From NCBI GenBank assembly GCA_029962745.1, contig CM057171.1, forward strand, positions 20,600,457-20,664,456: a stretch of 64,000 nt of DNA, given 5' to 3'. The position numbers and the translations under genes were made by a program. The notes under the pieces are model-generated. The model saw only the letters and a program-made list of their open reading frames with translations, was not told the origin of the DNA and did no database searches. Position 1 is the first letter of the stretch; the number at the start of each line of letters is the position of its first letter. This DNA is from Echinometra lucunter. Its lineage: Eukaryota; Echinodermata; Echinoidea; Camarodonta; Echinometridae. This document shows positions 1 through 58,389 of the stretch, one piece after another.

Positions 1-946
1 ACAGAAAACAGATTACCATTACTACTGAATGGTAGTATTGGTGTAGGTTACAGACCTTTGGCCATAAAACAGAAAACAGATTACCATTACTACTGAATGG
101 TAGTATTGGTGTAGGTTACAGACCTTTGACCATAAAACAGAAAACAGATTACCATTAATAATAATAATAATATTCTGGATTTATATAGCGCCTAATACAT
201 CTCCAAGAGAGTCTCTAAGCGCTTTACAGAAATATTATTACCCCGGTCATCGGATTCAGGCTTGCCTGCATACAATGCATGCACCTTCTCCACTCCCTAG
301 GGAGCATTCCAGCCAGGCGCCTTTTGCAGGCGCGCACAATGCTAAACAAATCACAGTGACTTTCGCATCCTACCGGGTACCCACTTGACACTTGGGTGGA
401 AGTGGCAAATGTAGATTCATATCTTGCCAAAGGACATTAGTGCCGCGCCGGGATTTGAACTCGGACCACGAGATCTACAGTCCGAATGGTAGTATTGGTG
501 TAGGTTACAGACCTTTGGCCATAAAACAGAAAACAGATTAGCATTACTACTGAATGGTAGTATTGGTGTAGGTTTCAGACCTTTGGCCATAAAACAAAAA
601 ACAAATTACCATTACTACTGAATGGTAGTATTGGTGTAGATTACAGACCTTTGGCCATAAAACAGAAAACAGATTACTATTACTACTGAATGGTAGTATT
701 GGTGTAGGTTACAGACCTTTGGCCATAAAACAGAAAACAGATTAGCATTACTACTGAATGGTAGTATTGGTGTAGGTTTCAGACCTTTGGCCATAAAACA
801 AAAAACAAATTACCATTACTACTGAATGGTAGTATTGGTGTAGATTACAGACCTTTGGCCATAAAACAGAAAACAGATTACTATTACTACTGAATGGTAG
901 TATTGGTGTAGGTTACAGACCTTTGGCCATAAAACAGAAAACAGAT
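1..946. repeat. 68-bp tandem satellite in SND1 intron 8
   Basis: The motif GAATGGTAGTATTGGTGTAG recurs at 27, 95, 484, 552, 620, 688, 756, 824 and 892, an exact 68-bp period. The array is split by a SINE between about 160 and 485. A 3-unit (204-bp) higher-order pattern is visible: the variants in roughly 539-742 are repeated in 743-946. It begins within 10 bases of the exon 8 donor, contains no donor copy of its own, and runs off the left edge. Confidence 0.93.
160..485 (-). mobile_element. tRNA-derived SINE, family A, inserted in the satellite
   Basis: Read on the minus strand it has a Pol III B-box-like GAGTTCAAATCCC (around 445-460), then CACTAATGTCCTTTGGC, a body with GGAATGCTCCCTAGGGAGTG, GGGGTAATAATATT, GTAAAGCGC and GGCGCTATATAAAT, and an (ATT)n tail at 160-172. 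The same block order appears at 63115-63390 and, in a diverged form, at 56170-56445. It interrupts the 68-bp array. Confidence 0.8.
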
Positions 947-7000: not shown

Positions 7001-10000
7001 TAATATATAATACATGGAGTTACATTTTCTTCATTATTAGCCCTTATCCAGCCCTGGCCCAACATTGTAATTCATATACCATGGAGTATTTGAAGATTCC
7101 TGAACAAAATGGGGTTGATAAAAAAGGAGAAATGAATTATTCATATGGGATTTCACATGAAGCCTCATCCAGAGGTAGAGTGATAAACTACCTAAAACAC
7201 ACTGCCTTGTCATAAGAAAATACATTTACATGTAATAGTAAATACCAAACTTGTGAGGATGAAAACAAAATGTAGCTGAGTGCAACAAAGGCTTCTTTCT
7301 ATGCATGCTCACTTATTCGTTCATTGATAGATATTAATAATAACAATAATAACAACAACAACAATAACAATAACAACAATAATAATAACAATAATACTAA
7401 TAACAGAAGGCCTTGAACTAGAAAGAGAAGTGAACAATGAGAACAGAACTTGTTTGACAGAATAGAGAACAGATAACCCTAAATTTCTGGAAGAAGTCTG
7501 GTTGCTGTTTAATATACCAACAGAACATCAAGTTGTAGAAAAAGGAAATAATAATAATAATAATAATGACAACAACAATAGCGGTGAAAACTTATAAAGC
7601 ACACACACCATCCAATGACACTCATGGCTATAGTCTAGCAACTGTTCTCTTTAATGCATATATACTACAATTTTATTTTATATTGGATTAACTTAAAACA
7701 AGTTCACAACATTGCATCACCCACTGTGACTCTCAGCTCCATCCAGTGAGGCCCGGTGTCCTCTTTGAAGCAAAATTTGAAGTATGCAACACCTTTGTCA
7801 TTTTACCTCCAGTTTGTTTTGTAAGAAGGCTTTACTACAAAGGTTCATTCAGATCTGCAGTGGCACACCATGGGTGAAAACCTTGGGGAGGGTTTTGCCA
7901 CACAGCTTATGATAATGGGATGAACATTAACACATCAAAAATAGTTCATGCTCAAATAAAAGAAAGTTTTGACAAACTTGAGACCTCATACACCTGCATG
8001 CTGCGCTAATTTTATAAGAATTTGATTGGTCCACCCTTTTTGCCACCAGGGGACAAAAAAATATGCTTCTTGCCTCTGGTCTATATTTGTTGCTTTATAT
8101 GTGAAGAAGCCTAGGGGATAACTTACCATCCACTGGTTTCTGATGCAGTGAGTCATTTAGCCTAGGGGATAACTTACCATCCACTGGTTTCTGATGCAGT
8201 GAGTCATTTAGCCTAGGGAATAACTTACCATCCACTGGTTTCTGATGCAGTGAGTCTACTAAATGACGAGGGTTCTCAACCGTCCAACTGATCTCACGTA
8301 CAGCATCAGGAGACTGCTCCTTCGCCCATTTACCCTTCCCAGCAGCCTTTGCTGCATCCTCAAGATCACACAATCTAGACTGGTCACTAAACACAAAGAG
8401 AAGAGAAAGATTGGTCATACAAACTTATTGACATCTATTTAGTGCCTTTACATCATACACACGCTCAAAACACTTTACAATGATATATACAACAGAATAC
8501 AATACCAGTAATTATTTTGCTTTCCAAGTATATACACAGTAAATTTGTTGCGTAATGCTGTGTAAAGTTATTAGTATTTAAAGGTAGTGCACCATATGAA
8601 CCAAGCCTGGGTCATACAGTACACAACTCCATTCAGATCCCACATAGCTCTACACAATGCCTTGTCAAAACAATCATGAAGGTCACTTACAAGGTCATAT
8701 TTAAGCTCATCTACATGTACAAGGTCACGTATAAGGTCACAGAGCCTAGACTAGGCTTTCCATACATATGAGAAGATTATAAATCTTAGAACTCATACTC
8801 ATATTCACACAATGAGCTCCCTTCTCACAAACTATCAACTTGCAAAATGTGATTTTTATGAGGTAGCTTAGCGAAATGGCAAGGTGCCAAAAGACGTGTA
8901 AAGAATGTTTGTTTGCATAGTTTGCCTTCTACTGATGCATCCTTTCACACCACTCAGTTTCATTAACCCAAGATAATTCACTGTCAAACCATAAACAGAT
9001 ATTTCATTTTCCATGGCAAGCTAAAATAGCCAGAAAAGACAGGTTATCTTGGTTTCCTCAGAAGTGTGGTCTTCCCCTCTAGATGTAAGCTTTAAAGTTT
9101 CCTGGGCTTGGTGTATAGGTGGCGCTTCATGCAATGCTTGCAAAAGTCCCTGTGGGCAGTACCATGCCATGAACCAGCCTAGTTGGGAATAGACAAACAT
9201 TATGCCCGCAACTACGAAAAACTACTACGTGCACTATAACTGTATATGGACCGAACACTGACTCGGCCTCACTATATGCACCGACCCTGCATGCATCAGT
9301 GACTTTGTGTGTGTGGCTTCTTCATCTCTATGGCGCGTGTGTTATGCATCGCTGCACCGCAACGCATCACAAACGAGAGTGAGTGGGAGCAAACCTAAGT
9401 GCTATGTATCCCCCCACACCAAAACCCTTTGCAGAAGCTGAGAAGCAGTGATGGCACTGCACAGTGGGAAGCTTTATCTATACACCACTTCCAGCCAACT
9501 TTAAAGAAATATGCTACTTACTCGCTTGGTTTAATACCTCCTCTCCTCACCTCCACCAATCCTTCAGATACAAGAACCTCTGTTACATTCTCTCCTGATG
9601 TATCTAATATATTAAACACATAACACAACATACTCTCATTTTCAAATATGTGCATTATGATACTTTTCAAATGGTATTACGTAATGTTTTATTAGTTACC
9701 TGTTGAACCTCAAAGGCGCTTTCAGATATGATGTGACTTTGTGCCACCACTTTGTGTGATCACATTTTGTGTGTTCATATGACTTTGTGTCACCACTTAT
9801 GCTAACACGTCAACTCTCAAATAAGAGAGCATTTTGTCAAAACTTGAGCAAACAATCTTGTGGCAACAATTTTTGCGCTGACTTTTTAGGAATTTGATTG
9901 GTGAGCATTTTTTGTAGCCAGGTAGCAAACAAAAATGTGTCCTGCATCGGCGACATTTTTCTGTCCCCTATACCCATAGACCTGTACACAAAAAATGTGT

Positions 10001-25797: not shown

Positions 25798-27369
25798 TTT
25801 CTACCATTCCTTTCATATTTTTGCATGGATCATATAAAGATAATTGATCATTACTATCTACTCAGACCATAAATTTCTCCATCTCACTACGGATACATTT
25901 TTAGAAGTCTATATGTATAATGTGGTAATTACCCACTGAACAGATGGGGGGGGGGGCAACTGCCCCCCCCCCCATGAAATCCAGATGTGGATCATGTATA
26001 AATTCGATACGAGTGATTTACACAAAAGTGCTGAAATGTCATAATTTTCCATGTTTTCCACACTTTTTGTAACTTATGACCTGAAACTCTTGCTCGCTTC
26101 GCTCGCGAGCATTTGAATCTATGTCTATTGCCGGTGTGATAGTCGATGTGTTCCGGGTTCCGCAGGAACGAAATGGCTAGTGGATTCGTTCCATGGAACC
26201 AAACGACTAGCTGATTCGTTCCGGCGGAACCAGACATCTGATACTACTTTTGGCTGATAATAATTATACGTTACGAAAGCCGCCGTTTGGTTCCAACATT
26301 AGACAAGAGTTTCGCGGTACATTTCGGAGGCCACGGAACGTTATTAGAGGGAGAGGGGAGCTGACACCAAAACAGGCGAAATCCAGATCCTGCAGATAGG
26401 GCCCTAGGGGGTTCATGGGCGGCATCCTCCCCCCCCCCCCCCCCCTCGGTCCCGGAACCCTTGGTTTTTCTGATTTTGAAAGTCCATTCCTTGATTTACA
26501 ATTTGAAATATATTAAGTTTTTTAAACTATAATAAGGTTTTTATTATTTTTTGGCCGAAAGTGTGGGGAGCCCCCCCCGCCCCCCCCCCCCCCCTTCCGC
26601 TGCACCTGAATTTTGATTATTAATATTGTCAAGAGTATTATTACACATTTTCATTGTCAGACGGTCTCTCAAGTCTTTGTAAATGCATTTTATATTGAAT
26701 AGGTTTATCAGTCATTAAAAGTTCTGATAAATCTCTATATTCCGGATATTCTGATGTGTCTGCAAAAGAGTTAACGAAATGTTTATATTTCTATTTTGAG
26801 AAGTCTTATTCTCATTAAGTTATCCTAAAGCATATGCACTGTGAAAAAATCGGCAAATGCTTTACCCAGCGTTGGGCTTATAGTCAACCCAACGAATTGT
26901 TAGGCATTGTTTTGCCCAAGGTTATGCATTTCCCAACATATTGGCTTTTGCCTTTGGGTAGCTTAAAATGCCTTCTATATCATGTATATTGCTTGGTTGT
27001 TGGTCAAATCTTTTTGCCCAACATTTTTTTTTTACCAACATCAACTTACCCATTTTTTGGTCACATTGTGGCTGCAAAATAATATCCAGCATCAAAGAAA
27101 ATACTAGTACCCTCTAATAAAATTTTCCCTGAAAAAACAGTGGCGTAATTAGTCAAAATAATTTGAGGGGGAAGAACATAGGTTCGGTGTAAAAATGTCA
27201 GAGGTAAAAATGTCAGAGGCAAAAAAAAAAGCCAGTGGAGAAAATGTCAGCTCTGGAAATGCCGAAGTGAACATGTTACAGTACAGGTAGGCCCTCTCTA
27301 CGAATATTGAATTAGAAAAGCTTTGGCCGCTTCACATGCACTGTGACAATTGAATAAGTAGTAGCAGTA
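25798..27369. other. Intergenic, transposon debris
   Basis: Poly-G/poly-C pair at 25946-25975; GGAACGAA/TTCGTTCC inverted motifs at 26150-26235; poly-C runs at 26429-26446 and 26577-26595; CCCAACR motifs at 26864-27060. At 27138 the hAT-like head CAGTGGCGTAATTAG begins, followed at 27184-27270 by AAAAATGTCAGAGGT repeats that are the reverse complement of the 15-bp array at 31781-32045. Confidence 0.5.
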
Positions 27370-30982: not shown

Positions 30983-32300
30983 CAGTAGTAGTATTTATTT
31001 CCGTATAAAAAACATAAAAAACAAAATATACGGTGGATTGCCCGCATTCAGCTAAACCAACATGGGAAAGCTGGTCTTCCGTGGGGTCCGGAACTAATAC
31101 ATAAATAAAGACATAACATAAACGGTGTAAAACAAACATAAGTAAAACAAAGTAAATTGCGCCTTCTGCGTAAGAAATGTCACGTGGGATGATGTCCATT
31201 GTTTTCTTTGTGAGATTAATGGGAAATAAGTTCTTAATGAAATGACAGAGTGGAAAGAAAATATTTGCGTTTGATGTTTTGCATATGCTAACACAATTAA
31301 CTAATTAAGTACAGGTAATTCTTTTGAAAAGATGTAAATTCCGCAGCGTATCCGATGAGTGACTATATACAAAGATCGAATTAGTTCCATTCGCTTGCTT
31401 CGATCCTATTCCACGTATTAGGAAAATGATATTCAGGCATTTGTTCACGTACACCACGCTTTATATACGAAGAGGAATGTGCACATTTATAATCGTAACT
31501 CATGTGAAATGAATGTTGTCAGCTAATAATGTTACAAGTCAAAGTTTTTCCCACCATCGTTTTTACAATGTTCATTAACGTACAATTTTTAACTGTACAT
31601 AATATATGCTTAATTCCCCCCTCACTCATACATGTACTTTTTTCCCCTACATAATCAGTAATGTAGAAACGATGAAAGATTGAACAAAATAGGCAGATAT
31701 CTCGCGTGCCCCTTCCTTTCTATAATTCAATATCTGTACCTGTAACATGTTTACTTCAACATTTTCTAATCTGACATACCTCTGAAATTTCTACCTCTGA
31801 CTTTTTACCTCTGTCATATTCAAATCTGAGATTTTTACCTCTTGCATTTTCACCTCTGGAATTTTTACCTCTGGCAGTTCACCTGGCATTTTACCTGTGA
31901 CATTTTTACCTGTGACATTTTTACCTCTGACATTTTTACCTCTGACTTTTCACCTCTGACATTTTTACCTCTGACATTTTTACCTCTGACATTATTACCT
32001 CTGACATTTTTACCTCTGACATTTTTACCTCTGACATTTTTACCTGGCACCAGAACGTTATGAAGCACATTTCTGAAAAGTTGCCAGCTAGCGAAGAGAC
32101 CAATTAAAAAATCGACTTAATGAAATGTTATTTTGTCATAGATCAGGACATATATCCGGGAGGTAATTTAATTTTTTTCCCCTTTCCCTTGTTTTAATTT
32201 TTTGAGTGGATTTTTCTCTCTTTTTTTTGAGGGAGGGGGGGGGGGAGGGGGCTACGGCCCCCAAGCCCCATATATGCCGGTGCTGAAAGAATATTAGCAC
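30983..32300. other. Repeat-rich intergenic region right of the hAT transposon
   Basis: 30990-31200 looks like a retroelement tail (TATTTATTTCCGTATAAAAAAC, GGTGGATTGCCCGCATTCAGC). 31201-31780 shows nothing assignable. A 15-bp minisatellite follows, then a poly-G run at 32229-32247 and a CCCCCAAGCCCC end-like segment. Confidence 0.5.
31781..32045 (+). repeat. 15-bp minisatellite CATTTTTACCTCTGA
   Basis: About 17 units, near-perfect in 31905-32045 and degenerate to the left. The reverse complement appears in short form at 27184-27270, on the other side of the hAT transposon. Confidence 0.9.
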
Positions 32301-37469: not shown

Positions 37470-37583
37470 ATGGATGAGGTCGAGAAATTCGTATCTCCAA
37501 TGGATGGAAAACAAGGACTGGAAGCTGTGGATGTTGTGGTGTTGGTGCTGTACTTTGTCCTTGTACTTGCTGTTGGATTAGGG
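37470..37583 (+). CDS. SLC5A-like exon 1 (start codon)
   Basis: 38 codons, [20 protein letters not shown] followed by a hydrophobic helix [17 protein letters not shown]; donor gtatgt. A short hydrophilic N-terminus then a helix is usual for SLC5A proteins. Phase 0. Confidence 0.9.
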
Positions 37584-46500: not shown

Positions 46501-49500
46501 AGTAATGTCTATAGAGGAAATCAGTATAAACCAGAATGTATGGGGAAGCACCATTCAGTACCGGTAGTTGTTGGACATTGTGTATGTACCCATTTAAAAT
46601 GATTATTAGAAATAGCCCATACCTCTTCACTTTTTTTTGTTTAATTTTGTCAGTCCAATGTCATGTGTTATTTATCTTTCTCTGCAGTCCATGTGTCGAT
46701 CCAATCGTGGTAGTGCTGAAGGATATTTCTTGGCTGGAGGGGCTATGCTATGGTTTCCTGTAAGTATTAAACTTTTCAGGGGTGGGGAGGAGTGGAGAGA
46801 ACTCCACTCATGATTGATGATTACCTAACTTTGTGAATGCTCGACTTCAGAGGGGTCAGATGCAGAATTTTAAGAATTTATAAGCTGAGTTGCTGAGATA
46901 GGTATTAGAGGTGAAAAGATTTGGTGCCTAAACTTAAAATTCAAAATCAAATTCTTAAGCTGTACTTCCTGCACATGGCATGAAATGGTGAACACATTAA
47001 TACTCAAATGAAAAGTAGTAGTACATATGTCAGCTGGAACTCTAGAAAGGCTCCTCTATTAAGCCTTTAGAATGGAAATAATTCTGTAAGAAGTGGGTTG
47101 GAGTCTAGTAAAGTGCAATAGTTTCATGTCACTGTCCTCATACTCAATGTACATGTGGACCACATTTCCTACACAGATTTAAAGGTATGTTGTATAGATA
47201 ACAAGAATGCCAAAAGTTTCTTTGTCGGAAAAATAGACCAAAAAAATGAAAGAAAAAAGGAATCTTTACTACCTAGATTTTCATTTGTGCTAGTCATGCA
47301 CGAGGTCAAAAAGTTATCAATTCATAGTTTTTCTGCTGACTATGCTCTGAATACAGTATACATCTATCATAAATGCTGGGTATTGACATTATGAAGTTGG
47401 TTTGGTTTTGGTAATTAGACTGCTATATGTGTATCAAAAAGATATCATGAACGGTGCTGTTGATTTGTTGTTATGATGCCATATCATTTGTCAAGATTGG
47501 CATCAGTCCAAGGAAGGGTGGGGATTGGGGGGGGGGATGATAGCATACACACATGTAATTTATGTTTCCCTTTCATTTTTTTTCTGTTCAAACTCAAATG
47601 CATGGAAAGGCTTATGTTTAACACTCAGAATATATATAGCCTTTGCTACAGGGAGATGTCAGGCTTGCCTTCTCTGCTCCTCATTCTACTTTCTAGCATA
47701 ATGCCTCTACCTCCCCTTTTTTTGAGAGCCTGTTAATACCCGTGGGTGCTTCCACTTTGTTTTGATGCTGCTGTCATGTGTAAAAGAGATATCCTGGCAA
47801 AGGTTCCGAGATGAAACTCTCACATGATCCAGAATTCAAGACAAGTTCAATGTTCCCTCCCCCTTTCCTCGTTTTTGGGGATATTTACTCATGAATACAT
47901 TGAAAGGCATAACACAACTGGGGGGAAAAAAAAACCCTTATGTTGGGAGTAGGGTAGGGAGCTTCCTTCTTTGCAAAGTGTTTTACTTTTGAGAATGCAT
48001 TATTGTCCTTAGGTGCATTTACATGTAATTTGTTTTCATTGCCAAGTGTAAATGAGATCTGATAGGATATACAGGTAACTGGACTAGGTCAATAGATAAA
48101 ACTCACATAATCCAAAGTACAATTCAAGTTCAGTGACACATATAGGTTTTTTTAAAAAAAGGTCTAAGAATTATCAATGAAGAAAAGGAGAAAAAGCAAA
48201 ATTATTTTGAGGGTCATTTCTTTTTTTGATTCTCTGTTTCCTGATGTATTTGCCAGTAAAAATCATCAATCATCAAAACATCAAGCATAATATACAGTAG
48301 TGTATATCTTTCTTTTGCTTGATAAGGCATGTCAAGGTTATAGCTCCATATACTTGGGCATAATCTGCCACTCACTGCACAGGAGGGGTTTTCAGTGAAC
48401 AAAGGAACTCCTGCAATCTGGGTATTAAATAAAGCCAATACTGTCCAGGCCACAACTTAAAAATTGAAAGTTTAAACTACTACCATCATTACAGTTTGCA
48501 TGCAGTAATCAGTGACTATTTTGAGTGTAAAGAATAAGGGACAAAATAAGAAACTTCTGTGGAAAGACTTCATTATGAAACGTACCTGTTTTGATGGGTC
48601 GTTATCTTTTTTTAGATCGCAGAACCAATAATGTTTTTGAAGAATAAGTACTTATCTTAAATCTAAAATAAACATGGATTTCACCTCAAACCTGAGGTCA
48701 GGTTGCTTGATCAGATCTCTGATTCAACATACATGTACATGTCCTCGCGTTCAGACTATCTCCTGGTAAACACATAGTGTGGACGCTCGCTGGGACTTCT
48801 CCCCGTCTCCCCCCCCCCCCCCCAACATATTGGGTTTTTGGACCTTGGCTCGTAATTCGATATCTCGCACCTGTTTTTATCATAAGTGCGCATGTGCGAA
48901 ATTCACCATGCACGTCATGTAATCTTGAGATGAAATTTAGGGAATCTATATGTCAAAATATCTTCTACATTATACAAACAAATGGTGGAGTATGATTTTT
49001 TATTTTCTTTCTATCTTCTTTTCAAATTCGAACAAATGTTGATTTTTCACTTCTTTACTAATCAAGTCGAGCAAATTTCTGAGTGTACTATAAGTTATTT
49101 CTTCAGAACAGTATAATACCCATTGCGTATGACATCTGCCCTTCTACAACATTCTTTTCAGACATCATCATCATGAATAATATGAAACAAGGCAGCAGAC
49201 GTATTTTTAGAATGTGTGATATATACACAGTGAAAGTTGCTATGATCTGATTAAGAAAATGATACTTGTCAGACTTGGAGCCACTTTTGAAGATGGTGGG
49301 GTTTGAATTTGCCCCAGAATTTGGGTGATTTGAAACGGAATGACACCCAACAATAACATTACCTACCCAAATTCCTTATTTTAAGAAGGAAGAGGAGGAG
49401 GGGGGGGGGGCCTTGGTCATATGATAGATATTTGGCTCCTGTCCATTGGCATGGCACTTGTCACATGAATTTTTTCTTTGTCAGTTTTGGCCACATTTCT

Positions 49501-51514
49501 ATTTTTCCTCCGCATGGTGAAGTTGCAGTTATGGCTGGCTGATTTTCCCATGTGCTTATTTGGAAACACCTGGGTCCTGTTGCATAAAACTTTTGCCAGA
49601 GTTTTTTATGGCAAAATTTGAGGAAACTACGGCAAAAAAAAAAATTGCCATAGCTTTCCACTACATAAAAATTTGCCAGACTTTTTTTGCCAGAAAAAAA
49701 GTCTGGCAAAAGTTTTATGCAACGGGCCCCAGGCTTTTATACCATACTTTAACATTTTATTTTGATGGAAATTTTAATTTGATGTACATTTTAGATATAC
49801 ATTACATGTACCTTATAAACTGTTTGTGTAGGTGTTTAAAGAACAGAAAATATCAGTCAAAAGTTGTTAAAGCCCTCTTATTAAACTGTAATGTTATGTA
49901 CTTTTGTTTTGTTATTCATTTAGAAATCAAAGGGTCAGATGATAAATATTTAATACATACTGGAAAAGAGATTAAAACTTGGAAAGAAACTGAAGAAATA
50001 TCATTTCATCTAACTACGCATTAGATGTGTAATGTATGACCAAACATGACCCTTAATTTTCTATGTCCTTTTTTTTTGGGGGGGGGAGGGGGGGTGGTAA
50101 CATTACCAAAATTTTAGTCACTGCTCTAGCTCCATGGATTGCCCTAATATTCTATCTACATGAAACTTACCTTTGGTGTTGCAGAGATTAAACATGTCCA
50201 ACGATTCTTTTTATGAGGCCCAAAAGGCACAGTTTTTTATGCCTCCGCCCACCGTAGGTGGTTGCCGGAGGCATTATGTTTTGGGGTCGTCCATCCGTCC
50301 GTCCGTCCCGTTTTCGTTCTCGCGATAACTTAAGAACCGTTCGACAGATCAACTTCAAACTTGGCTCGTGTATGCATTTGGGAGGGACAATGATCTGATT
50401 AGATTTTGGAGTCTCAAGGTCAAAGGTCAAGGTCATAGAGGTAATAATACACATAAAAATGGCTCGTTCGCGATAACTTAAGAACCATTTAACAGATTGG
50501 CTTCAAACTTGGCTCATGTATACACATGGAAGGGACAATGATCTGATTAGATTTTGGGGTCACAAGGTCAAAGGTCAAAGGTCATTATGTACATAGAAAT
50601 GGTTTGTTTTCACCATAACTCAACAACCATTTGACCGATCAACCTCACACTTGGCACATGCATGCATATGGGAGGGACAATGATCTGATTAGATTCTGGG
50701 GTCTCAAGGTCAAAGGTCAAAGGTCAAAGAGGTCATTATGTACATAGAAATGGTTCGTTCTTGTGATAACTCAGTAACCATTTGACAGTTCAGCAGTCTT
50801 GATTCATGTATGCATATGGAAAGGGCAATGCTCTCATTAGATTTGGGGTCACAAGGTCAAAGGTCAAGGTCAAAGATATCATTGTATAAATGAAAATAAA
50901 TCAACATGAAGTGCCATTTATTTCTGATTTGGTAATGGCGGAGGCATAAAGTTCGATCATGCGTGGTCGAAGATTCATCTAGTCTTTTAGTGCTACGATG
51001 TTACGGTTATCATGGTGCATTGAACTTTACAATTATTATGTCTATAGGTTGGAGCTTCATTGTTTGCAAGTAACATTGGAAGTGAACACTTCATCGGCCT
51101 GGCAGGGTCAGGGGCATCATCAGGCATTGGGGTTGGAGCCTTTGAACTTAATGTAAGTATATTCTTACAGATTTGTTTACACAAGCATCAAGCATCCACT
51201 CATATTGTACCAGAAGTGCTAGTAGTTTTGGAATCAACATACCAAGATGTAGAACTGAAAAAGGAAAGAAAAGAATATCATTCGATGGCCCAATATTGTG
51301 GAATAGTTTACCAAACTCATTCAGAATTTTAACATCCATAAAATCCTTCATTTCCTCATACTGGCGAGTAAACTTAAGGTTTACAACAATCAACACTGCA
51401 AACTTTGTCAAACTGTTCGTATCCTATTTGTATCTTCATGTATACTTTTTTCAACAGGGCCCTCTAGGAGAACAGTGTTTGTCACTGAAAGAGCTACCCT
51501 GTATAAATAAGACT

Positions 51515-51566
<52 letters not shown>

Positions 51567-54500
51567 GATAATAATGATGATAATGATAATAATGATTATA
51601 ATGATGATAATGTTAGTAATAATGATAATAATAATAATTGTAATGATGCTAATGATAATGATAATGAAAATAATAATGATAATAATAATAATAATAATGA
51701 TTATGATAATAATAATAATAACAATAATAATAATAACAATAATAATAGTAATAATAATAAAGTTAAGCATAGTGATGATGCTAATGAAGAAGAAGGAGAA
51801 GAAGGAGGTGCAGAAGAAAGAATCAAGAATCAGAAAAAAATAAGCAGAAGAAGAAGGCAGATGAAAAAGGATAAATACATGTAGAAGGTTGTTTTGATTT
51901 AAATCCTCTGATTCGAAATATGTATGTATGCGTGTATTATTGAATGTTAGTGACGATTCTATTGGTGAAATTGATATCTCAATATGATTTTTATATTATT
52001 TGCTATTTTATTGTCGTTACAACTTTTACATCGAAATTCCTTTATCTGTTCGAAATCGAGTATTGTATTACATTTTAATTTAACCATTGCAATTCAGTCT
52101 TCGGACTGTGAGAATGGATGTTTTTCAATTTAATTCAATTAATTTATTTCACATTTGCATAAGAAATACAACACAAATTATATGTATACATAGTATCACT
52201 GAGGAAAAAAATACAAAGAATACAAATGTGCGGTATTCACGAAGGCCATAGGACTATCAAAGGCTAATCCCAAACAATAAAACATGTTATATAGTACAAG
52301 AAGGATCAAAATACGAGAAAAACAAAACAGAAGTAACATACGTAACGACATTAAAAAAAAACAAGGTACAAGTCAATGAGAATCCCTTTATATTTACTTT
52401 TAAAAGAGTTGAGGGAAGGGCAAGATTTACATGTACCGTACTACAAATAGGTATAAGCTATTCCAAAGGATGGGTCCAACATATTGGATTGTGGTTCGGG
52501 AGAACTTGTATTTAAAATTTGGTAAGTGAAAGTCATCGGACTGTCTGGTATTTTATTTGATTAGATATTTGTTTTTCACAAATAATTCACCATAAAATGG
52601 GGGGAAGTGAATTTCGAACAAATGAATACATGAAAATTGCAGTTTGATATTTGTTGATATTATGAACAGACAGTAAGATTGATTTTTTAAAAAGAGGCTA
52701 TGTACTTGATCGAGGGGAAAAATTATAGCTCTGGCTGCACGTTTCTGTAAAACAAATATTTGGTTTAAGTGAACCATTGCACAGTTACCCCAAAGTATAT
52801 GGCAGTAATTTAAATATGGCAAAACTAAAGATTGATATAACATCAAAAGTATGTTTAATGGAATTGATTTCATTAGTCTGTTAATTTCACCAATACATTT
52901 TGATACTTTACAGGAAATATCATTTATTTGCTCTTTGCAAGTGAGTTTATCATCTATGACAACACCCAAAAATCGTGTAAAATGAACAACAGGAATTTTA
53001 CTATTGTCAATATAAGTAAAATCCTTCAATCAGTTCAATGCTTGTTAATCCCCTCTGTCATCATAGGCACTGGTAGTTGTACATACATGTACCATCTGTT
53101 CCTGGGAAGGCTGATAAATGCATCGTTTTTACTTTAAATATTCCCCATTGCAGACAGTTTTATTTGAGAGTTGGTGCGTTATTCATGCTCATTAACATAT
53201 TTTGTGGGGCAGGGAAAAAAATACACGGGGGCTCGGGGCAAATTCGCCCCCGAAACACCAAAAAGAGCCCTGGAAAACTAAAAAAAGAGCCCCTGAAATT
53301 CTCATATGGTCCAATGTAAACTGTAATACAATGTAGAAAATTTGGGATGGTGAGCTCAAAAAGTAGCCCCGGAAAAAAATAATTAATTTTTTCCCTGTTG
53401 TGGGGTGGTTTGTGGCACCCTATCTGAACAGTAAAAATATTGCGGGAATTTGTTGCCTAATATCTGGGCCCCGTTTCATAAAAACTAATCATCAATAAAC
53501 AGTTGCGATAACTGTCATAATCTACTGAAATCCTTGCATCTGATTGGCCGAGAGCAAATATGTCATAGAAATGTGTCAGTTGTTTTATGAAACGTAGGCC
53601 CTGAACAAGCCTTTATTGTTTGTTTTTCAGGCCATTATCTTGCTCCAAGTAATGGGATGGGTGTTCTTACCAGTCTTTATGGTTTGTTTTTCAGGCCATT
53701 ATCTTGCTCCAAGTAATGGGATGGGTGTTCTTACCAGTCTTTATTGTTTGTTTTTCAGGCTATTATCTTGCTCCAAGTAATGGGATGGGTATTCTTACCA
53801 GTCTTTATTGTTTGTTTTTCAGGCCATTATCTTGCTCCAAGTAATGGGATGGGTGTTCTTACCAGTCTTTATTGTTTGTTTTTCAGGCCATTATCTTACT
53901 CCAAGTAATGGGATGGGTGTTCTTACCAGTCTTTATTGTTTGTTTTTCAGGCCATTATCTTGCTCCAAGTAATGGGATGGGTGTTCTTACCAGTCTTTAT
54001 GGTTTGTTTTTCAGGCCATTATCTTACTCCAAGTAATGGGATGGGTATTCTACCAGCCTTTATTGTTTGTTTTTCAGGCCATTATCTTACTCCAAGTAAT
54101 GGGATGGGTATTCTTACCAGTCTTTATTGTTTGTTTTTCAGGCCATTATCTTACTCCAAGTAATGGGATGGGTATTCTTACCAGTCTTTATGGTTTGTTT
54201 TTCAGGCCATTATCTTACTCCAAGTAATGGGATGGGTGTTCTTACCAGTCTTTATTGTTTGTTTTTCAGGCCATTATTTTGCTCCAAGTAATGGGATGGG
54301 TGTTCTTACCAGTCTTTATGGTTTGTTTTTCAGGCCATTATCTTGCTCCAAGTAATGGGATGGGTATTCTTACCAGTCTTTATTGTTTGTTTTTCAGGCC
54401 ATTATCTTACTCCAAGTAATGGGATGGGTGTTCTTACCAGTCTTTATTGTTTGTTTTTCAGGCCATTATTTTGCTCCAAGTAATGGGATGGGTGTTCTTA

Positions 54501-57500
54501 CCAGTCTTTATTGTTTGTTTTTCAGGCCATTATTTTGCTCCAAGTAATGGGATGGGTGTTCTTACCAGTCTTTATTGTTTGTTTTTCAGGCCATTATCTT
54601 GCTCCAAGTTATGGGATGGGTGTTCTTACCAGTCTTTATGGTTTGTTTTTCAGGCCATTATCTTGCTCCAAGTAATGGGATGGGTGTTCTTACCAGTCTT
54701 TATTGTTTGTTTTTCAGGCCATTATCTTGCTCCAAGTTATGGGATGGGTGTTCTTACCAGTCTTTATGGTTTGTTTTTCAGGCCATTATCTTGCTCCAAG
54801 TAATGGGATGGGTGTTCTTACCAGTCTTTATTGTTTGTTTTTCAGGCCATTATTTTGCTCCAAGTAATGGGATGGGTGTTCTTACCAGTCTTTATGGTTT
54901 GTTTTTTCAGGCCATTATCTTGCTCCAAGTAATGGGATGGGTATTCTTACCAGTCTTTATTGTTTGTTTTTCAGGCCATTATCTTACTCCAAGTAATGGG
55001 ATGGGTGTTCTTACCAGTCTTTATTGTTTGTTTTTCAGGCCATTATTTTGCTCCAAGTAATGGGATGGGTGTTCTTACCAGTCTTTATTGTTTGTTTTTC
55101 AGGCCATTATTTTGCTCCAAGTAATGGGATGGGTGTTCTTACCAGTCTTTATGGTTTGTTTTTCAGGCCATTATCTTACTCCAAGTAATGGGATGGGTGT
55201 TCTTACCAGTCTTTATTGTTTGTTTTTCAGGCCATTATTTTGCTCCAAGTAATGGGATGGGTGTTCTTACCAGTCTTTATTGTTTGTTTTTCAGGCCATT
55301 ATCTTACTCCAAGTAATGGGATGGGTATTCTTACCAGTCTATCTTGCTGGAGGTATCTATACCATGCCAGAATATCTTCAGAAGAGATTTGGAGGCAGAA
55401 GGATTAGAATGTACATTGCTGTTGTCTCACTCATTCTCTACATCTTCACCAAAATATCTGTAAGAATATTATCCTCTATCTCTCTTTCTAATCTTCACCA
55501 AAATATCTGTAAGAATATTATCCTCTATCTGTCTTTCTAATCTTCACCAAGAAATCTATAAGAATACTACTTGTAGGTTTTATCCCTCTTGTGTCTAATC
55601 TTCACCAAGAAATCTGTAAGAATACTACTCATAGGTTTTATCCCTCTTCTGTCTGATCTTCACCAAGATATCTGTAAGAATACTACTTGTAGGTTTTATC
55701 CCTCTTCTGTCTAATCTTCACCAAGATATCTGTAAGAATACTACTTGTAGGTTTTATCCCTCTTCTGTCTAATCTTCACCAAGAAATCTGTACAGTGTAA
55801 GAATACTAAGATTTGTCTCTCTTCTCTCTAATCTTCACCAAGATATCTTTGAGATCACTGTATTTTTCCTCTTATCACACCTGTATTTTTGTAATCTTTG
55901 ATACAATATCTGTAAGAACACTTCCTCCCTTGTATATTACCATCCTTTCACTCATTCTAATACATCTTCACCTTCTCATCATTTCACCCATATTCCTTTA
56001 AAATTCAGCAAGATGAATATTATTTTTTTTATCCTTTACCAATTCTAATGCAATCTTTTCTTATTCCTCCAGAGCATTTTTTATCATCATTATTTTCAAT
56101 TTTCTGGAGTTATATAAGTTTATATCAGTTTTTTCATGCTAAATTCATCACCACTTTAATATATCTGATGTAGCAGAGTTGTTTATGGTCTAGTGATTAT
56201 GTCTCCCGACTGAACCACAAGGTGAAGGGTTCAAATCCCTGCCCCAGCACTGATGTCCTTTGGCAAAGCATTATCCTGCATTTGTCAAACTTGACCCAGG
56301 TCTAGTGAGTAGGTACATGTAACTGGGAGAATTTATTTGTTGAATGCACTGAGCCTTTAATAGGTTTCAACGTTAAAGCTGGGGAAATATGATTGGAGGA
56401 CCATCAGGGAGAACAGTACTGAAGGCGCTATACATGAAACATGATATTGGTTTTTTTCTCTCTCTCTCTTGCTGGTGTTCAGGTTGATCTGTATTCTGGA
56501 GCTTTGTTCATCCAGCAAGCTTTAGGATGGAATCTGTATGTGGCTATCTTCTCTCTGCTTGCTATCACAGCATTATACACTGTGACAGGTGGATTGGCTG
56601 CTGTCATCTTCACTGATACTGTACAGGCCATTATCATGTTGACTGGAGCTCTCTGGCTCTGTATTGAGAGTAAGTGTGTCTTTTGGCAAGACATTTACCT
56701 CCATTTGCCTCTTTTCACCCAGGTCAGGCCAGGTGTAGTAACACCCCCATTCCACAGAGGGCATGACCTCTCAAAGACCACTGAAAGACAAAAAAATTTG
56801 ACAGATCTCTCAATGATCTTACAGAACTTTCAATGATCACCAAGGTTTTTCATGATTCCTCAGTGATCTTTCAATGAATTTCAGGATCTCTGTGGTCTCC
56901 ACCAAATTTTGAACTGGTTCAAAATAGTCTTTCATTGGTGTTTCAGCGATCTCCCAACGAGCGCTCAAGGATCTTACTAGTCTTACAATTGTAAATGGTC
57001 TTTCAGAGATCTTAGTCTCTCAGAGCTCTTTTATTTATCACTCAAAGATCTCAGTCAGTCTGTCAGATGATCTTTCAGTGATCTCTCAATAGTCTTTTTG
57101 GTCTCTCAATGAATGCTTGGTGATCTTCAAGGTCCCACAGAGATCTCTTAGAAATTTTGCTGGAAATTACTTCTTGTTCTTTCAATGATCTCTTAAAGGT
57201 TTTTAGAGCCATCCCGCAGAGACACTATTTTTCTCTGGTCTTGGATACTGCTGGGAGATCTTGCAATTTTTGGTCTTTCAGTGGTTTCTCAAGGGGTCTC
57301 CGCTCGTTGAATAGGGGCCTAAATGGGCTCCTGATAGGAAGGATTTCTTGAAATGTGTGAGCGCTGTTGTGGCAGCTTGGCTAGAAATATTGGAGTGCAA
57401 GGAATGGCTAATGGGTGCCAGACTTAAACACTATACAAGAATCTCCCAACATACACTGTACATGGATGCACTTCAACTTCTCATCACAACATTAGTTCAG

Positions 57501-58389
57501 TCTCAGTTCGAATTGAATGAAATCTCGCACTGAACCAAAATGTGCAGAGTACACAAAATTCGCTGTTCTCCGTTTCTCCGTTTCCAATGTTATTTCCTAT
57601 GGAGAAGCAGTATTGCACAAATTTTGCCGTTTTTTAAACGGCTACAAAACGGTGATAAAAGAGAGATAAAAGAGAGAATTTTAAGCTACAAAATGGCTTC
57701 ACCCTCACAGCCTTTGTTCATATTTCGCCATTTTCTAGCCATTTTTTAGTAATTTTGTAGCCATTTCCTGGTTGTTTCCTCTCCTTGCTTCTCAAAAGAA
57801 GAGAGACAAAACAGAGAAAAAGGGCAAAAAAAACGGCGAGTGGCCACAACAGAGCTCGCTCACTGTGCATGGCTTTGCTTGTGGGGGGGGGGGGGTGAAC
57901 TTTGCCAGTTAAAAGAGAGGATTACATGTTTTAATCATCATAGACAGTGATTCCAGTCTATTTTCACATTAGCAGTGTATTCATGCCTGGAAGAAGTACT
58001 ATGAGTGAAAAAAAAGTATTTTCTAGTCATAGAACTATACAGTAACTAAAATTTCATTTATGTGCTATTTTGAAATTAATTTTGTCAAAGCTCTGCGGGC
58101 TATGGCCGCAGGTTGGCCACCCCTGGTCCACATGTATTATTGTATTTAGTATGTTGTATTTTTCTCTGTATTTTTTGAAGGTTTCCAAGCTATTGGAGGT
58201 TACCAGAACCTAGAACCTCTGTATGCCCAGGCTGTCTCCAATGATAGTCTCTCGTCCAACAACTCCTGCGGTCTTCCACGAGATGACTACTTCAATCTGT
58301 TCCGTGACCCTGTGAACTCTGACCTTCCTTGGCCCGGGTTCATCTTTGGACAGACCGCAGCCTCTCTCTGGTATTGGGCAACGGATCAG
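37470..58389 (+). CDS. SLC5A-family sodium/solute cotransporter (SGLT/SMIT-like), exons 1-6, partial
   Basis: Exons 37470-37583, 46688-46759, 51048-51152, 55295-55459, 56483-56669 and 58181-58389 give 852 nt (284 codons) in one open frame with consistent phases. Family motifs in order: [14 protein letters not shown] (first helix), [86 protein letters not shown] and WYWATDQ. This is the sodium/solute symporter fold, acting in the plasma membrane to move a sugar or polyol with sodium. The His and Glu that contact sugar in SGLT1 are present (SEHF; GAFELN). By eye it lies between SLC5A11 and the SGLTs, with SMIT-like [11 protein letters not shown] and FGQT. The usual Cys of WYWCTDQ is Ala. NDS and NNS in exon 6 are possible N-glycosylation sites in an external loop. 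About half the protein lies past the right edge. Confidence 0.93.
37742..38140 (+). mobile_element. TTAA MITE, copy b (3' end decayed)
   Basis: Starts TTAACCCATTCGTGACAG and follows copies a and c throughout. The right end stops at CCTGTCACAAATAATGC, without the terminal TTAA. Confidence 0.85.
38505..38787 (+). pseudogene. LINE reverse transcriptase C-terminal fragment
   Basis: A frame with YKIHYGLVN, then after a frameshift [32 protein letters not shown] and PAFKEAA, ending at TAA 38785-38787. The FFPRTIRxWNxLP motif near the end of ORF2 is typical of CR1/L2/Jockey-like non-LTR retrotransposons. Truncated at the 5' side and frameshifted. Confidence 0.8.
38902..39310 (+). pseudogene. LINE reverse transcriptase, 5' portion
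   Basis: Encodes [38 protein letters not shown] and CIDYKK, the RT fingers/palm region of a non-LTR retrotransposon. Earlier codons (from about 38902) read [20 protein letters not shown]. The frame is interrupted at 39310 by an hAT element and resumes at 41827. A small frameshift lies near 39040. Confidence 0.88.
40064..40479 (+). mobile_element. TTAA MITE, copy c
   Basis: Full-length copy with TTAACCCATTCGTGACAG and CTGTCACGAATGGGTTAA ends, nested in the hAT element. Its minus strand keeps a ~93-codon frame ending CGPLSRMG at the TTAA. Confidence 0.9.
40500..40760. repeat. Unassigned inverted segment with GGGTACCCAC motifs
   Basis: CTGGGTACCCACTTTGACGTCATAATGACGTCAAAGTGGGTACC (40610-40653; given here as landmarks only: GGTACCCACTTTGACGTCA and its mirror) forms a near-perfect palindrome around ATAATG, and a third copy GGGTACCCACTTTTACGTCA lies at 40740. 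It contains paired TGACGTCA (CRE) sites. Confidence 0.6.
41827..42560 (+). pseudogene. LINE reverse transcriptase, 3' portion
   Basis: Continues the interrupted [22 protein letters not shown], then [16 protein letters not shown], the catalytic-motif region [18 protein letters not shown] (YGDD in place of the usual YADD), [32 protein letters not shown] and [12 protein letters not shown]. Several frameshifts and stops interrupt it, so it is a dead copy. Confidence 0.88.
42748..43965 (+). pseudogene. LINE ORF1 (Jockey/CR1-like gag with zinc knuckles)
   Basis: Opens with [20 protein letters not shown] and a polar Ser/Asp-rich leader. It then shifts frame and encodes an RRM-like middle ([29 protein letters not shown]) and a zinc-knuckle block [43 protein letters not shown], then [10 protein letters not shown]. 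The first knuckle has lost a cysteine (CFISQ). Frameshifts near 43050, 43250, 43280 and 43570. It lies downstream of an RT fragment, so it belongs to a separate insertion. Confidence 0.8.
44955..45374 (-). mobile_element. TTAA MITE, copy d (inverted)
   Basis: Ends TTAACCCATTCATGACAGG and CTCTGTCACGAATGGGTTAA. The orientation is reversed relative to copies a-c. A plus-strand frame of ~89 codons is kept, again ending CGPLSRMG at the TTAA. Confidence 0.88.
45375..45905 (-). repeat. Retroelement-like dispersed repeat
   Basis: Begins with (AAT)n, AAATATTTGTAATGCACATA and GCACAGTACCACTCAGGGCG. Ends near ATTCCACAAGACTGGTGCAA, GTCGGAAAGC. Read on the minus strand it looks like a SINE/LINE tail with an (ATT)n 3' end. 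Family not identified. Confidence 0.4.
45978..46464 (+). mobile_element. MITE family B, copy 3
   Basis: Begins ATTGGTTAACATTGTTATGA and ends GTTAGCCAATGCCTGTAA. Same orientation and block order as 1791-2285, including AGTGCGCATGCGCGCATGG. Left terminus slightly decayed. Confidence 0.85.
46688..46759 (+). CDS. SLC5A-like exon 2
   Basis: 24 codons, [18 protein letters not shown] then AMLWFP; acceptor tctgcag after a pyrimidine tract, donor gtaagt. EGYFLAGG is a hallmark of the SLC5A family. Phase 0 both ends. Confidence 0.94.
49572..49730. mobile_element. Palindromic MITE (GGGYCCTGTTGCATAAAAC)
   Basis: GGGTCCTGTTGCATAAAACT, TTTGCCAGA is mirrored by TCTGGCAAAAGTTTTATGC, AACGGGCCCC. The arms nearly meet in the middle, so it could form a long hairpin. 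Confidence 0.85.
50239..50982 (-). mobile_element. AGGTCA-rich DNA repeat, copy 2
   Basis: Inverted copy of 11260-12003. ATGCCTCCGCCCACC and (GTCC)n at the left, units with AAGGTCAAAGGTCAAAGGTC, GAGGGACAATGATCTGATTAG, CGATAACTTAAGAACC, then GCGGAGGCATAAA and GGTCGAAGATTCATCTAG at the right. Confidence 0.85.
51048..51152 (+). CDS. SLC5A-like exon 3
   Basis: 35 codons from [20 protein letters not shown] to GVGAFELN; acceptor tctatag, donor gtaagt. It includes the conserved SNIGS(G/E)HF motif whose His, with the Glu near the exon end, contacts sugar in SGLT1. The SEHF form is SMIT-like. Confidence 0.95.
51173..51517 (+). pseudogene. LINE ORF2 C-terminal fragment
   Basis: Encodes [37 protein letters not shown] and SIKSFISSY, ending at TAA 51515-51517. 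YNTRSA...GPxLWNSLP is the standard C-terminal signature of CR1/L2-type LINE reverse transcriptases. The repeat starts only ~20 bp after the exon 3 donor. Confidence 0.85.
51515..51785. repeat. AAT/GAT microsatellite
   Basis: About 270 bp of AAT, GAT and AAC triplets at the 3' end of the LINE fragment, consistent with the simple-repeat tails of CR1/L2-like LINEs. Confidence 0.93.
52130..53029 (-). pseudogene. LINE reverse transcriptase C-terminal fragment, inverted
   Basis: Minus-strand frame 52553-53029 has [35 protein letters not shown] and LQKRAARAI, the thumb/connection region of a CR1/L2-like RT (FLGV-x-ID-x-LTW, LP-x-L-x-YC, LQKRAxR). 52130-52552 is its 3' continuation with stops, ending in ACATTTGCATAAGAAAT. 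Confidence 0.85.
53466..53601. mobile_element. Palindromic MITE (GGGCCCCGTTTCATAAA)
   Basis: GGGCCCCGTTTCATAAAA and TTTTATGAAACGTAGGCCC are inverted ends. The middle has ATCCTTGCATCTGATTGG, shared in reverse with 61485-61624. It directly precedes the acceptor array. Confidence 0.8.
53611..55341 (+). repeat. 64-bp splice-acceptor minisatellite (27 copies)
   Basis: Each unit is TTGTTTGTTTTTCAG, then GCCATTATCTTGCTCCAAG, TAATGGGATGGGTGTTC, TTACCAGTCTTTA. The exon-start GCC (GCT in copy 3) falls at 53631, 53695, 53759 and so on to 55295: 26 intervals totalling 1664 bp, exactly 26 x 64, with one 63- and one 65-bp interval cancelling. Every copy keeps a pyrimidine tract and CAG acceptor. Sequence variants are few: C/T and G/A in the CTTGC segment, GTG/GTA, TAA/TTA, TTG/TGG. 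Copies 11-14 match 20-23 in all these variants, and 16-17 match 18-19, showing block duplications within the array. Confidence 0.97.
55295..55459 (+). CDS. SLC5A-like exon 4, flanked by splice-site arrays
   Basis: 55 codons, [20 protein letters not shown] to [10 protein letters not shown], including [14 protein letters not shown]. Acceptor ttgtttttcag (55284-55294); donor gtaaga (55460). The acceptor and first ~46 exon bases are the 27th copy of a 64-bp array, and the last ~18 exon bases plus donor are the first copy of a 49/58-bp array. The 27th acceptor is the functional one because only this copy continues into [14 protein letters not shown]. Confidence 0.95.
55440..55860 (+). repeat. 49/58-bp splice-donor minisatellite (7-8 copies)
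   Basis: Unit: AATCTTCACCAA(A/G)A(T/A)ATCT then gtaagaata. Donors or donor positions at 55460 (exon 4), 55509, 55558 (ATAAG, GT lost), 55616, 55674, 55732 and 55790 (GTACAG, with GTAAG at 55797), plus a degenerate copy near 55836. Spacing is 49, 49, then 58, 58, 58, 58. The unit shares the exon's last ~18 bases. Confidence 0.95.
55861..56482 (+). other. SLC5A-like intron 4, 3' part
   Basis: AT-rich sequence followed by a SINE. TTTTTTTCTCTCTCTCTCTT (56451-56470) is the pyrimidine tract for exon 5. Confidence 0.7.
56170..56445 (+). mobile_element. tRNA-derived SINE, diverged family A-like copy
   Basis: A-box-like TGGTCTAGTGATTATG, B-box GGTTCAAATCCC, then CACTGATGTCCTTTGGCAAA, CCCAGGTCTAGTGAGTAGGT, and a tail with GGCGCTATACATGAA. 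It shares block order with 160-485 (reverse) and 63115-63390. Confidence 0.8.
56483..56669 (+). CDS. SLC5A-like exon 5
   Basis: 62 codons plus one base: [39 protein letters not shown], then [13 protein letters not shown]; acceptor ggtgttcag, donor gtaagt. The segment covers two membrane helices and the highly conserved [15 protein letters not shown] motif. Confidence 0.95.
56670..58180 (+). other. SLC5A-like intron 5
   Basis: 56760-57340 is a degenerate tandem of TCTTTCAATGATCTCTCA-like words (over 20 occurrences of GATCT). 57880-57893 is a poly-G run. 58090-58127 ends in GGTTGGCCACCCCTG, the typical end of an hAT element (CAGGGGTGGCCAACC in reverse), with no left end found. A reversed GAGAGA/AAAAACGG region at 57600-57840 may be a small element. 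Confidence 0.6.
58181..58389 (+). CDS. SLC5A-like exon 6, last exon in window
   Basis: 209 nt; acceptor ttttttgaag, donor gtctgt. It encodes [57 protein letters not shown] and WYWATDQ. The NSCGLPR-D segment is strikingly like SLC5A11. Ends phase 0; the next exon would start with the VxVQR segment and is not seen before 64000. Confidence 0.93.

Follow-up and report, generated by a model that had tools for sequence, protein, structure and literature searches.

Tandem Arrays of Splice Sites at Both Boundaries of an SLC5A Exon in the Sea Urchin Echinometra lucunter

How is a single exon spliced when its 3' splice site is present in 27 nearly identical tandem copies? The question is raised by a stretch of 64,000 nt from the sea urchin Echinometra lucunter (GenBank assembly GCA_029962745.1, contig CM057171.1, positions 20,600,457–20,664,456 of the forward strand; hereafter the window), in which a 64-bp tandem array covers the junction between intron 3 and exon 4 of a gene of the SLC5A family. 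A first-pass annotation, made from the sequence alone, proposed that all upstream copies are non-productive decoys and that either the last acceptor is reliably selected from the donor side or the array lowers or tunes expression through nonsense-mediated decay (NMD). The analysis presented here indicates that the array is probably a young minisatellite anchored at an exon boundary, of the kind described as "mirages" in amphioxus, in which the decoys would be inert and the exon-proximal sites would be used.

Results

An Array of 27 Acceptors at the Intron 3–Exon 4 Junction

A Tandem Repeats Finder (TRF) run on the window identified a repeat with a period of 64, 27.0 copies and 96% matches at positions 53611–55340 (forward strand). 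Each unit consists of a pyrimidine tract, a CAG and the first ∼46 nt of exon 4 (55295–55459, forward strand; 165 nt, codon-complete at both ends, donor gtaagaat). A count of the TTTTTCAG acceptors agrees with the TRF result and with the first-pass annotation: 27 acceptors are present, with first exonic bases from 53631 to 55295, and they are spaced by 64 nt in 24 out of 26 cases, by 63 nt once (copy 7 to copy 8) and by 65 nt once (copy 20 to copy 21). The exon body is reached by copy 27 alone, which provides the acceptor of exon 4, and copies 1–26 are referred to as decoys. The decoys hold only ∼46 nt of the 165-nt exon, and the array is not a tandem duplication of a whole exon as found in mutually exclusive exons. 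A search of the whole 743-Mb genome (742,976,193 bases in 2266 contigs, 21 of which are 23–61 Mb long and the next 95 kb) turned up a single location of the acceptor array, on the chromosome-size contig C21.

Over positions −20 to +3, 17 of the 26 decoys have the same sequence as the true acceptor; a model restricted to this interval therefore cannot separate them from it, and something beyond the local acceptor must choose, which upholds this part of the earlier proposal. A branch-point-like CTTAC motif, which may serve as the branch point, is located at −26/−27 in 25 out of 27 copies including the true one (the exceptions are copies 1 and 8). The motif in front of each acceptor is provided by the exon sequence of the preceding unit, so that the functional acceptor owes its upstream context to the duplication.

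The variants among the copies form a mosaic. The block of copies 11–15 reappears as copies 20–24, which was equalled in 9 out of 5000 shuffles, and a 2-bp CT match was seen by eye at the duplication junction of the 64-bp segment. Overall, the array is young, as it contains few independent variants. The presence of TTTTTCAG in every copy is, because of this young age, little evidence of selection, and the retention of the motif was dropped as an argument for selection because the independent variants in the array are too few.

Almost every unit of the array (53611–55340) contains TTCTTACCAG, which gives the donor-like CTGGTAAGAA on the opposite strand and, in addition, complements the donor of exon 4. 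Sequestration of the exon 4 donor by the array units (TTCTTAC is complementary to GTAAGAA, with 26 sites in the array and exon 4) was considered and set aside, as the motif is coding sequence. Two-unit and exon-end folds of the RNA were not better than those of shuffled sequences (z = −0.77, −0.61, and 0.25). A palindromic element that resembles a miniature inverted-repeat transposable element is located at positions 53466–53601 of the window, by eye, and its end is separated by ∼10 nt from the start of the acceptor array.

An Array of Donors at the Opposite Boundary of Exon 4

The donor boundary of exon 4 carries an array of its own. TRF and reading of the sequence identified tandem copies of the exon end followed by GTAAGA at positions 55437–55940 (forward strand), arranged as 49-bp and then 58-bp units. 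Including the true donor, the copies number about nine (the TRF rows stop at 55848 and are followed by one degenerate copy). The decoy donors are located at 55509, 55558 (GT lost), 55616, 55674, 55732, 55790/55797 (shifted), 55849 (GT lost), and 55912 (degenerate and farthest from the exon); the GT is gone in two copies and the donor is shifted in one. Both this array and the recurrence of such arrays at other exon edges (see below) were overlooked by the first-pass annotation.

Reading Frames and Conservation of the Decoys

When exon 3 is joined to the upstream acceptors one by one, a premature stop is met before exon 4 has been read to its end in 26 out of 26 cases, which bears out the claim that all decoys are non-productive. 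The frame is shifted from an acceptor one or two units upstream and kept from three units, as had been stated. Copies 16 and 18, singled out earlier because they read AAGTTATGG, indeed lack the TAA, but a later stop is met when reading on. The GTAAG decoy donors of exon 4 lead to a premature stop in six out of six cases, and skipping of exon 4 leaves the frame open. If transcripts that use decoy acceptors were removed by NMD, the copy number of the array could set the output of the gene. The stops behind all 26 acceptors and all six donors are in line with such a tuning of expression, as are the 17 decoys that match the true site over −20 to +3 and the CTTAC motif in 25 copies.

The conservation of the decoys points in the other direction. 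Variation over seven arrays amounts to 5 events in 14 columns for the splice cores, 12 in 48 for the wider motif, 35 in 162 for the other exonic columns, and 86 in 130 for the other intronic columns, where the counts include a few out-of-register rows (among them, in the acceptor array, copies 7 and 21). The splice motif does not differ significantly from the rest of the unit (P = 0.17), and the exonic columns are less variable than the intronic columns, out-of-register rows included. A GT or AG is kept in 103 out of 109 decoys in a gapless scan of ten arrays, which does not pick up two copies at the exon 4 donor nor the decoys at exon 7. In two donor arrays of SLC5A (exon 4 and exon 7), the GT or the donor consensus is lost in several copies. 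Arrays with few decoy losses are young and older arrays lose splice cores. With decoy cores that show no special conservation and that are lost in older arrays, a role in tuning or NMD is unsupported. The data speak against a maintenance of the decoys, and weak incidental use would be compatible with them.

Nor is the array shared with the related genes examined: six further SLC5 paralogue stretches (700–800 bp around the corresponding exon) and the neighbouring SLC5 paralogue contain no boundary-spanning array. An acceptor at the position seen in SLC5A exon 4 is present in only one of these stretches (L031) and in the neighbouring paralogue; in the other five stretches, the matching piece of the exon begins 20 residues later. 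Given the unremarkable conservation of the decoy motifs, the lost donor sites and the absence of the array from the paralogues examined, tuning of expression through NMD is unlikely, and the minisatellite is probably non-regulatory.

The exonic variants of the acceptor array outside copy 7 are GCC/GCT, ATC/ATT, TTG/TTA, GTA/GTT, and GTG/GTA, and all of them (5/5) are synonymous in the SLC5A frame (P = 0.0006–0.0022 depending on the transition weight). The simplest reading is that the functional slot, which is exposed to selection, would be the recent source of the young copies. Three points weigh against it. The test is post hoc and covers five sites only; copy 7, which was excluded from it, carries a 1-nt deletion and a GTC to GCC change at the unit edge; and the raw tally of seven pooled arrays is 20 synonymous and 18 non-synonymous changes with stop codons among the latter, where the out-of-register reading of copy 7 contributes five non-synonymous changes and one synonymous change. 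The pooled tally with its stop codons indicates that decoys are generally without coding constraint.

Arrays at Other Exon Boundaries

A total of 68 boundaries were mapped in SLC5A, the adjoining gene SND1, and the neighbouring SLC5 paralogue, and copies of a boundary were defined as at least 25 out of 30 matching bases within 2.5 kb. One boundary of the paralogue was dropped as its acceptor pattern was not found, and the mapping covers neither exon 1 of SND1 nor its exon between E17 and E19, nor the last exon(s) of SLC5A. A local tandem copy is present at 10 out of 68 boundaries (SLC5A 4/21, SND1 6/35, paralogue 0/12; 10/56 for SND1 and SLC5A together). The donor array of SLC5A exon 7 and the array at SND1 exon 8 are below the 25/30 threshold and do not belong to the ten, yet they touch boundaries. 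Among the 37 arrays with a period of at least 12 within the gene spans, 12 are located within 25 nt of a boundary (nine at donors and three at acceptors), and these 12 include all eight arrays with at least 4.5 copies and a period of at least 30 in the merged list (8/8).

Within the window, the donor array of SND1 exon 5 (8108–8256, minus strand) consists of three copies of a 51-bp unit including the functional one (exon at 8229–8386). A 68-bp array by the donor of SND1 exon 8 (1–946, minus strand) starts 9 nt into the intron that follows the exon at 956–1062 and is thus adjacent to the boundary without spanning it; it extends past the window and has, according to TRF, 40.9 copies overall with 73% matches. 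Outside the window, SND1 has donor arrays with about 31 copies of a 53-bp unit and 11 copies of a 55-bp unit, and SLC5A has one with 15 copies of a 61-bp unit. The donor array of SLC5A exon 7 is degenerate and contains GTAAGT at two places only, the functional one included. By eye, a SINE-like element (short interspersed nuclear element) with a transfer RNA-like head and an ATT-rich tail interrupts the SND1 exon 8 array at ∼160–484 of the window.

The frequency of copies at boundaries was compared with a control in which each array was reduced to one unit. A copy is found in 2.1% of 13,253 overlapping intron windows in this collapsed control (P = 1.8e-6 for 10/68), and low P values are also obtained without the exon 4 acceptor array (9/67, P = 1.3e-5) and for the boundaries outside the 64,000-nt window only (7/43, P = 3e-5). 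Several results reduce the force of this comparison. Without collapsing there is no excess, as 10/68 boundaries compare with 16% of 2656 intron windows that contain a copy, and 3/25 boundaries compare with 8.5% within the 64,000-nt window; the high intron rate in the uncollapsed data is due to the length of the arrays. An assumed background of 5% raises the P values to 0.002 (10/68) and 0.005 (7/43). In addition, the boundaries, which belong to two genes and one paralogue, are not independent of each other. A wider sample of 20 stretches of 10 kb, taken at the same 10-Mb position on each of the contigs C1–C20 and hence not truly random (four contain runs of N), revealed 35 arrays with a period of at least 25 but only one supported boundary case and two picked by eye, which is no clear excess. 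In the supported case, the acceptor of a PI-PLC exon on a different chromosome is present in two tandem copies (stretch L028, 4687–4865); the other two look by eye like donor duplications, and neither has a Pfam match. Overall, the boundary excess is convincing in SND1 and SLC5A and unproven for the genome as a whole.

Discussion

Probable Boundary-Anchored Minisatellites Beyond Amphioxus

Amphioxus mirages are described for Adh3, the globins BflGb6 and BflGb9, PGBD5, and troponin C (PMC3087553, PMC3902484), and reverse transcription PCR suggested that they do not disturb splicing (PMC3087553). They are minisatellite-like tandem duplications across an exon–intron boundary on either side of an exon, and the arrays of exon 4 have the same anatomy: each unit of the acceptor and donor arrays holds exon and intron sequence of one junction, and the sequence runs on into the exon from the nearest copy alone. 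The amphioxus unit lengths given there, 10–72 bp (Adh3) and about 150–160 bp (globins), bracket the 64-bp unit, and the 27 acceptor copies compare with six and three units in two BflGb6 haplotypes. The mirages reported so far are from cephalochordates, which is not part of their structural definition. The present arrays differ from them in that they belong to another genome, affect both sides of one exon and several edges in two neighbouring genes, and, in the acceptor array outside copy 7, carry only synonymous exonic variants. A search for boundary arrays in other animals in the open literature, judged by title or the start of the abstract and leaving most of the subscription literature uncovered, gave only PMC3087553 and PMC3902484 as relevant. 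The arraying of both junctions of one exon and the recurrence at exon edges of neighbouring genes are new, and they suggest that minisatellites of this kind also occur outside amphioxus and that a single region can be rich in them.

Two other systems are related to a lesser degree. The human IFI6 gene (6-16, G1P3) reportedly contains a minisatellite with multiple splice donor sites and resembles the present locus in that a minisatellite holds repeated splice sites. The repeats of IFI6 are reported to supply splice donor sites of a transcript, whereas the main array here consists of acceptors and is known from sequence alone. Intron gain by tandem genomic duplication likewise copies splice-site sequence by tandem duplication; here, in contrast, the intron is pre-existing and no new one was made.

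The most plausible history of the locus starts with a 64-bp segment over the intron 3–exon 4 junction that would have been tandemly duplicated and would have grown to 27 units through unequal exchange and block duplication, and a separate event with other units may have occurred at the exon 4 donor. The real 165-nt exon would use the exon-proximal acceptor and donor only, and the decoys are most likely ignored because the nearest acceptor–donor pair defines the exon. In favour of this reading, beta-globin constructs in which the 3' splice site had been duplicated were spliced, inefficiently, to the distal site only (PMC5389562). The arrays would most likely be tolerated because splicing uses the exon-proximal sites. 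As copies keep passing through the functional slot, their exonic variants might be filtered to synonymous ones. A more far-reaching proposal, which is possible but doubtful, is that splice junctions are the targets of tandem duplication in this genome. Exon edges, and donors in particular (nine donor and three acceptor arrays), might be birth hotspots owing to a process linked with transcription or splicing, and arrays might be continually re-seeded from the functional copy, in which case the intronic repeats would be shaped by selection on the coding exon.

Alternatively, the arrays could be functional as multiple landing pads for U2AF and U1 that strengthen the recognition of the adjoining exon. 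That both the acceptor and the donor of exon 4 are arrayed fits this idea, and a second U2AF35 was bound, without ATP, to a pre-mRNA whose strong 3' splice site had been duplicated (PMC5389562). In the same paper, however, weaker duplicated-site constructs were spliced very inefficiently. Together with decoy motifs that show no significant extra conservation and with the paralogues examined, in which the equivalent exon has no array, this makes landing pads quite improbable. Also improbable is an assembly artefact or an inflated copy number: the array is known from one assembly alone and one amphioxus mirage was apparently misassembled in a draft genome (PMC3087553), but the copies are distinguished by a mosaic of variants, the array has one location on a chromosome-size contig, and arrays with other units are present at other exon edges.

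The locus provides a natural test of how the spliceosome chooses among 27 near-identical acceptors without local sequence cues and with a donor array opposite. It also bears on the lengthening or gain of introns and on the question why exon edges would attract tandem duplication.

Gene Structure and Additional Features

The SLC5A gene (SGLT-like, forward strand) was located by tblastn with a human SGLT1 sequence as query. In addition to exon 4, the window contains exon 1 (37500–37583; likely start codon by eye, donor gtatgt), exon 2 (46688–46759), exon 3 (51048–51152, donor gtaagtat), exon 5 (56483–56669), and exon 6 (58181–58389). When joined, exons 1–6 encode 272 residues in one SGLT-like frame without a stop; the best PDB matches are SGLT1 (1.4e-106) and SGLT2 (1.2e-97) and the Pfam match is SSF (6e-73), in agreement with the gene and exon assignment of the first-pass annotation. 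Exon 4 alone as a protein query gave one short match. Five further exons are located downstream in the flanking DNA, and the last exon(s), coding for the last ∼hundred residues, were not found in the DNA examined for this gene. A pseudogene copy, which had been named as an observation that would overturn the reading of the array, is not what the locus looks like as far as it was read, given one open frame over exons 1–6 and five exons beyond. SND1 is located on the minus strand (5.2e-110 to a solved SND1) with exons that run on past the window, and the neighbouring SLC5 paralogue is also on the minus strand. Searches of the window with Rfam (gathering thresholds) and ARAGORN gave no matches.

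Three minor features were observed in addition. A TCA microsatellite is located close after the donor in one of the paralogue stretches (L035). Donor-like 15-bp repeats of the form AGAGGTAAAAATGTC are present at positions 31777–32045 and 27189–27225 of the window, away from every exon mapped here. Finally, the DNA ahead of the window contains, ∼31260 to 30450 bases from its position 1, several repeats of a short exon-like unit with a CAG before it and a GTAAG after it, which look like tandem copies of an entire short exon.

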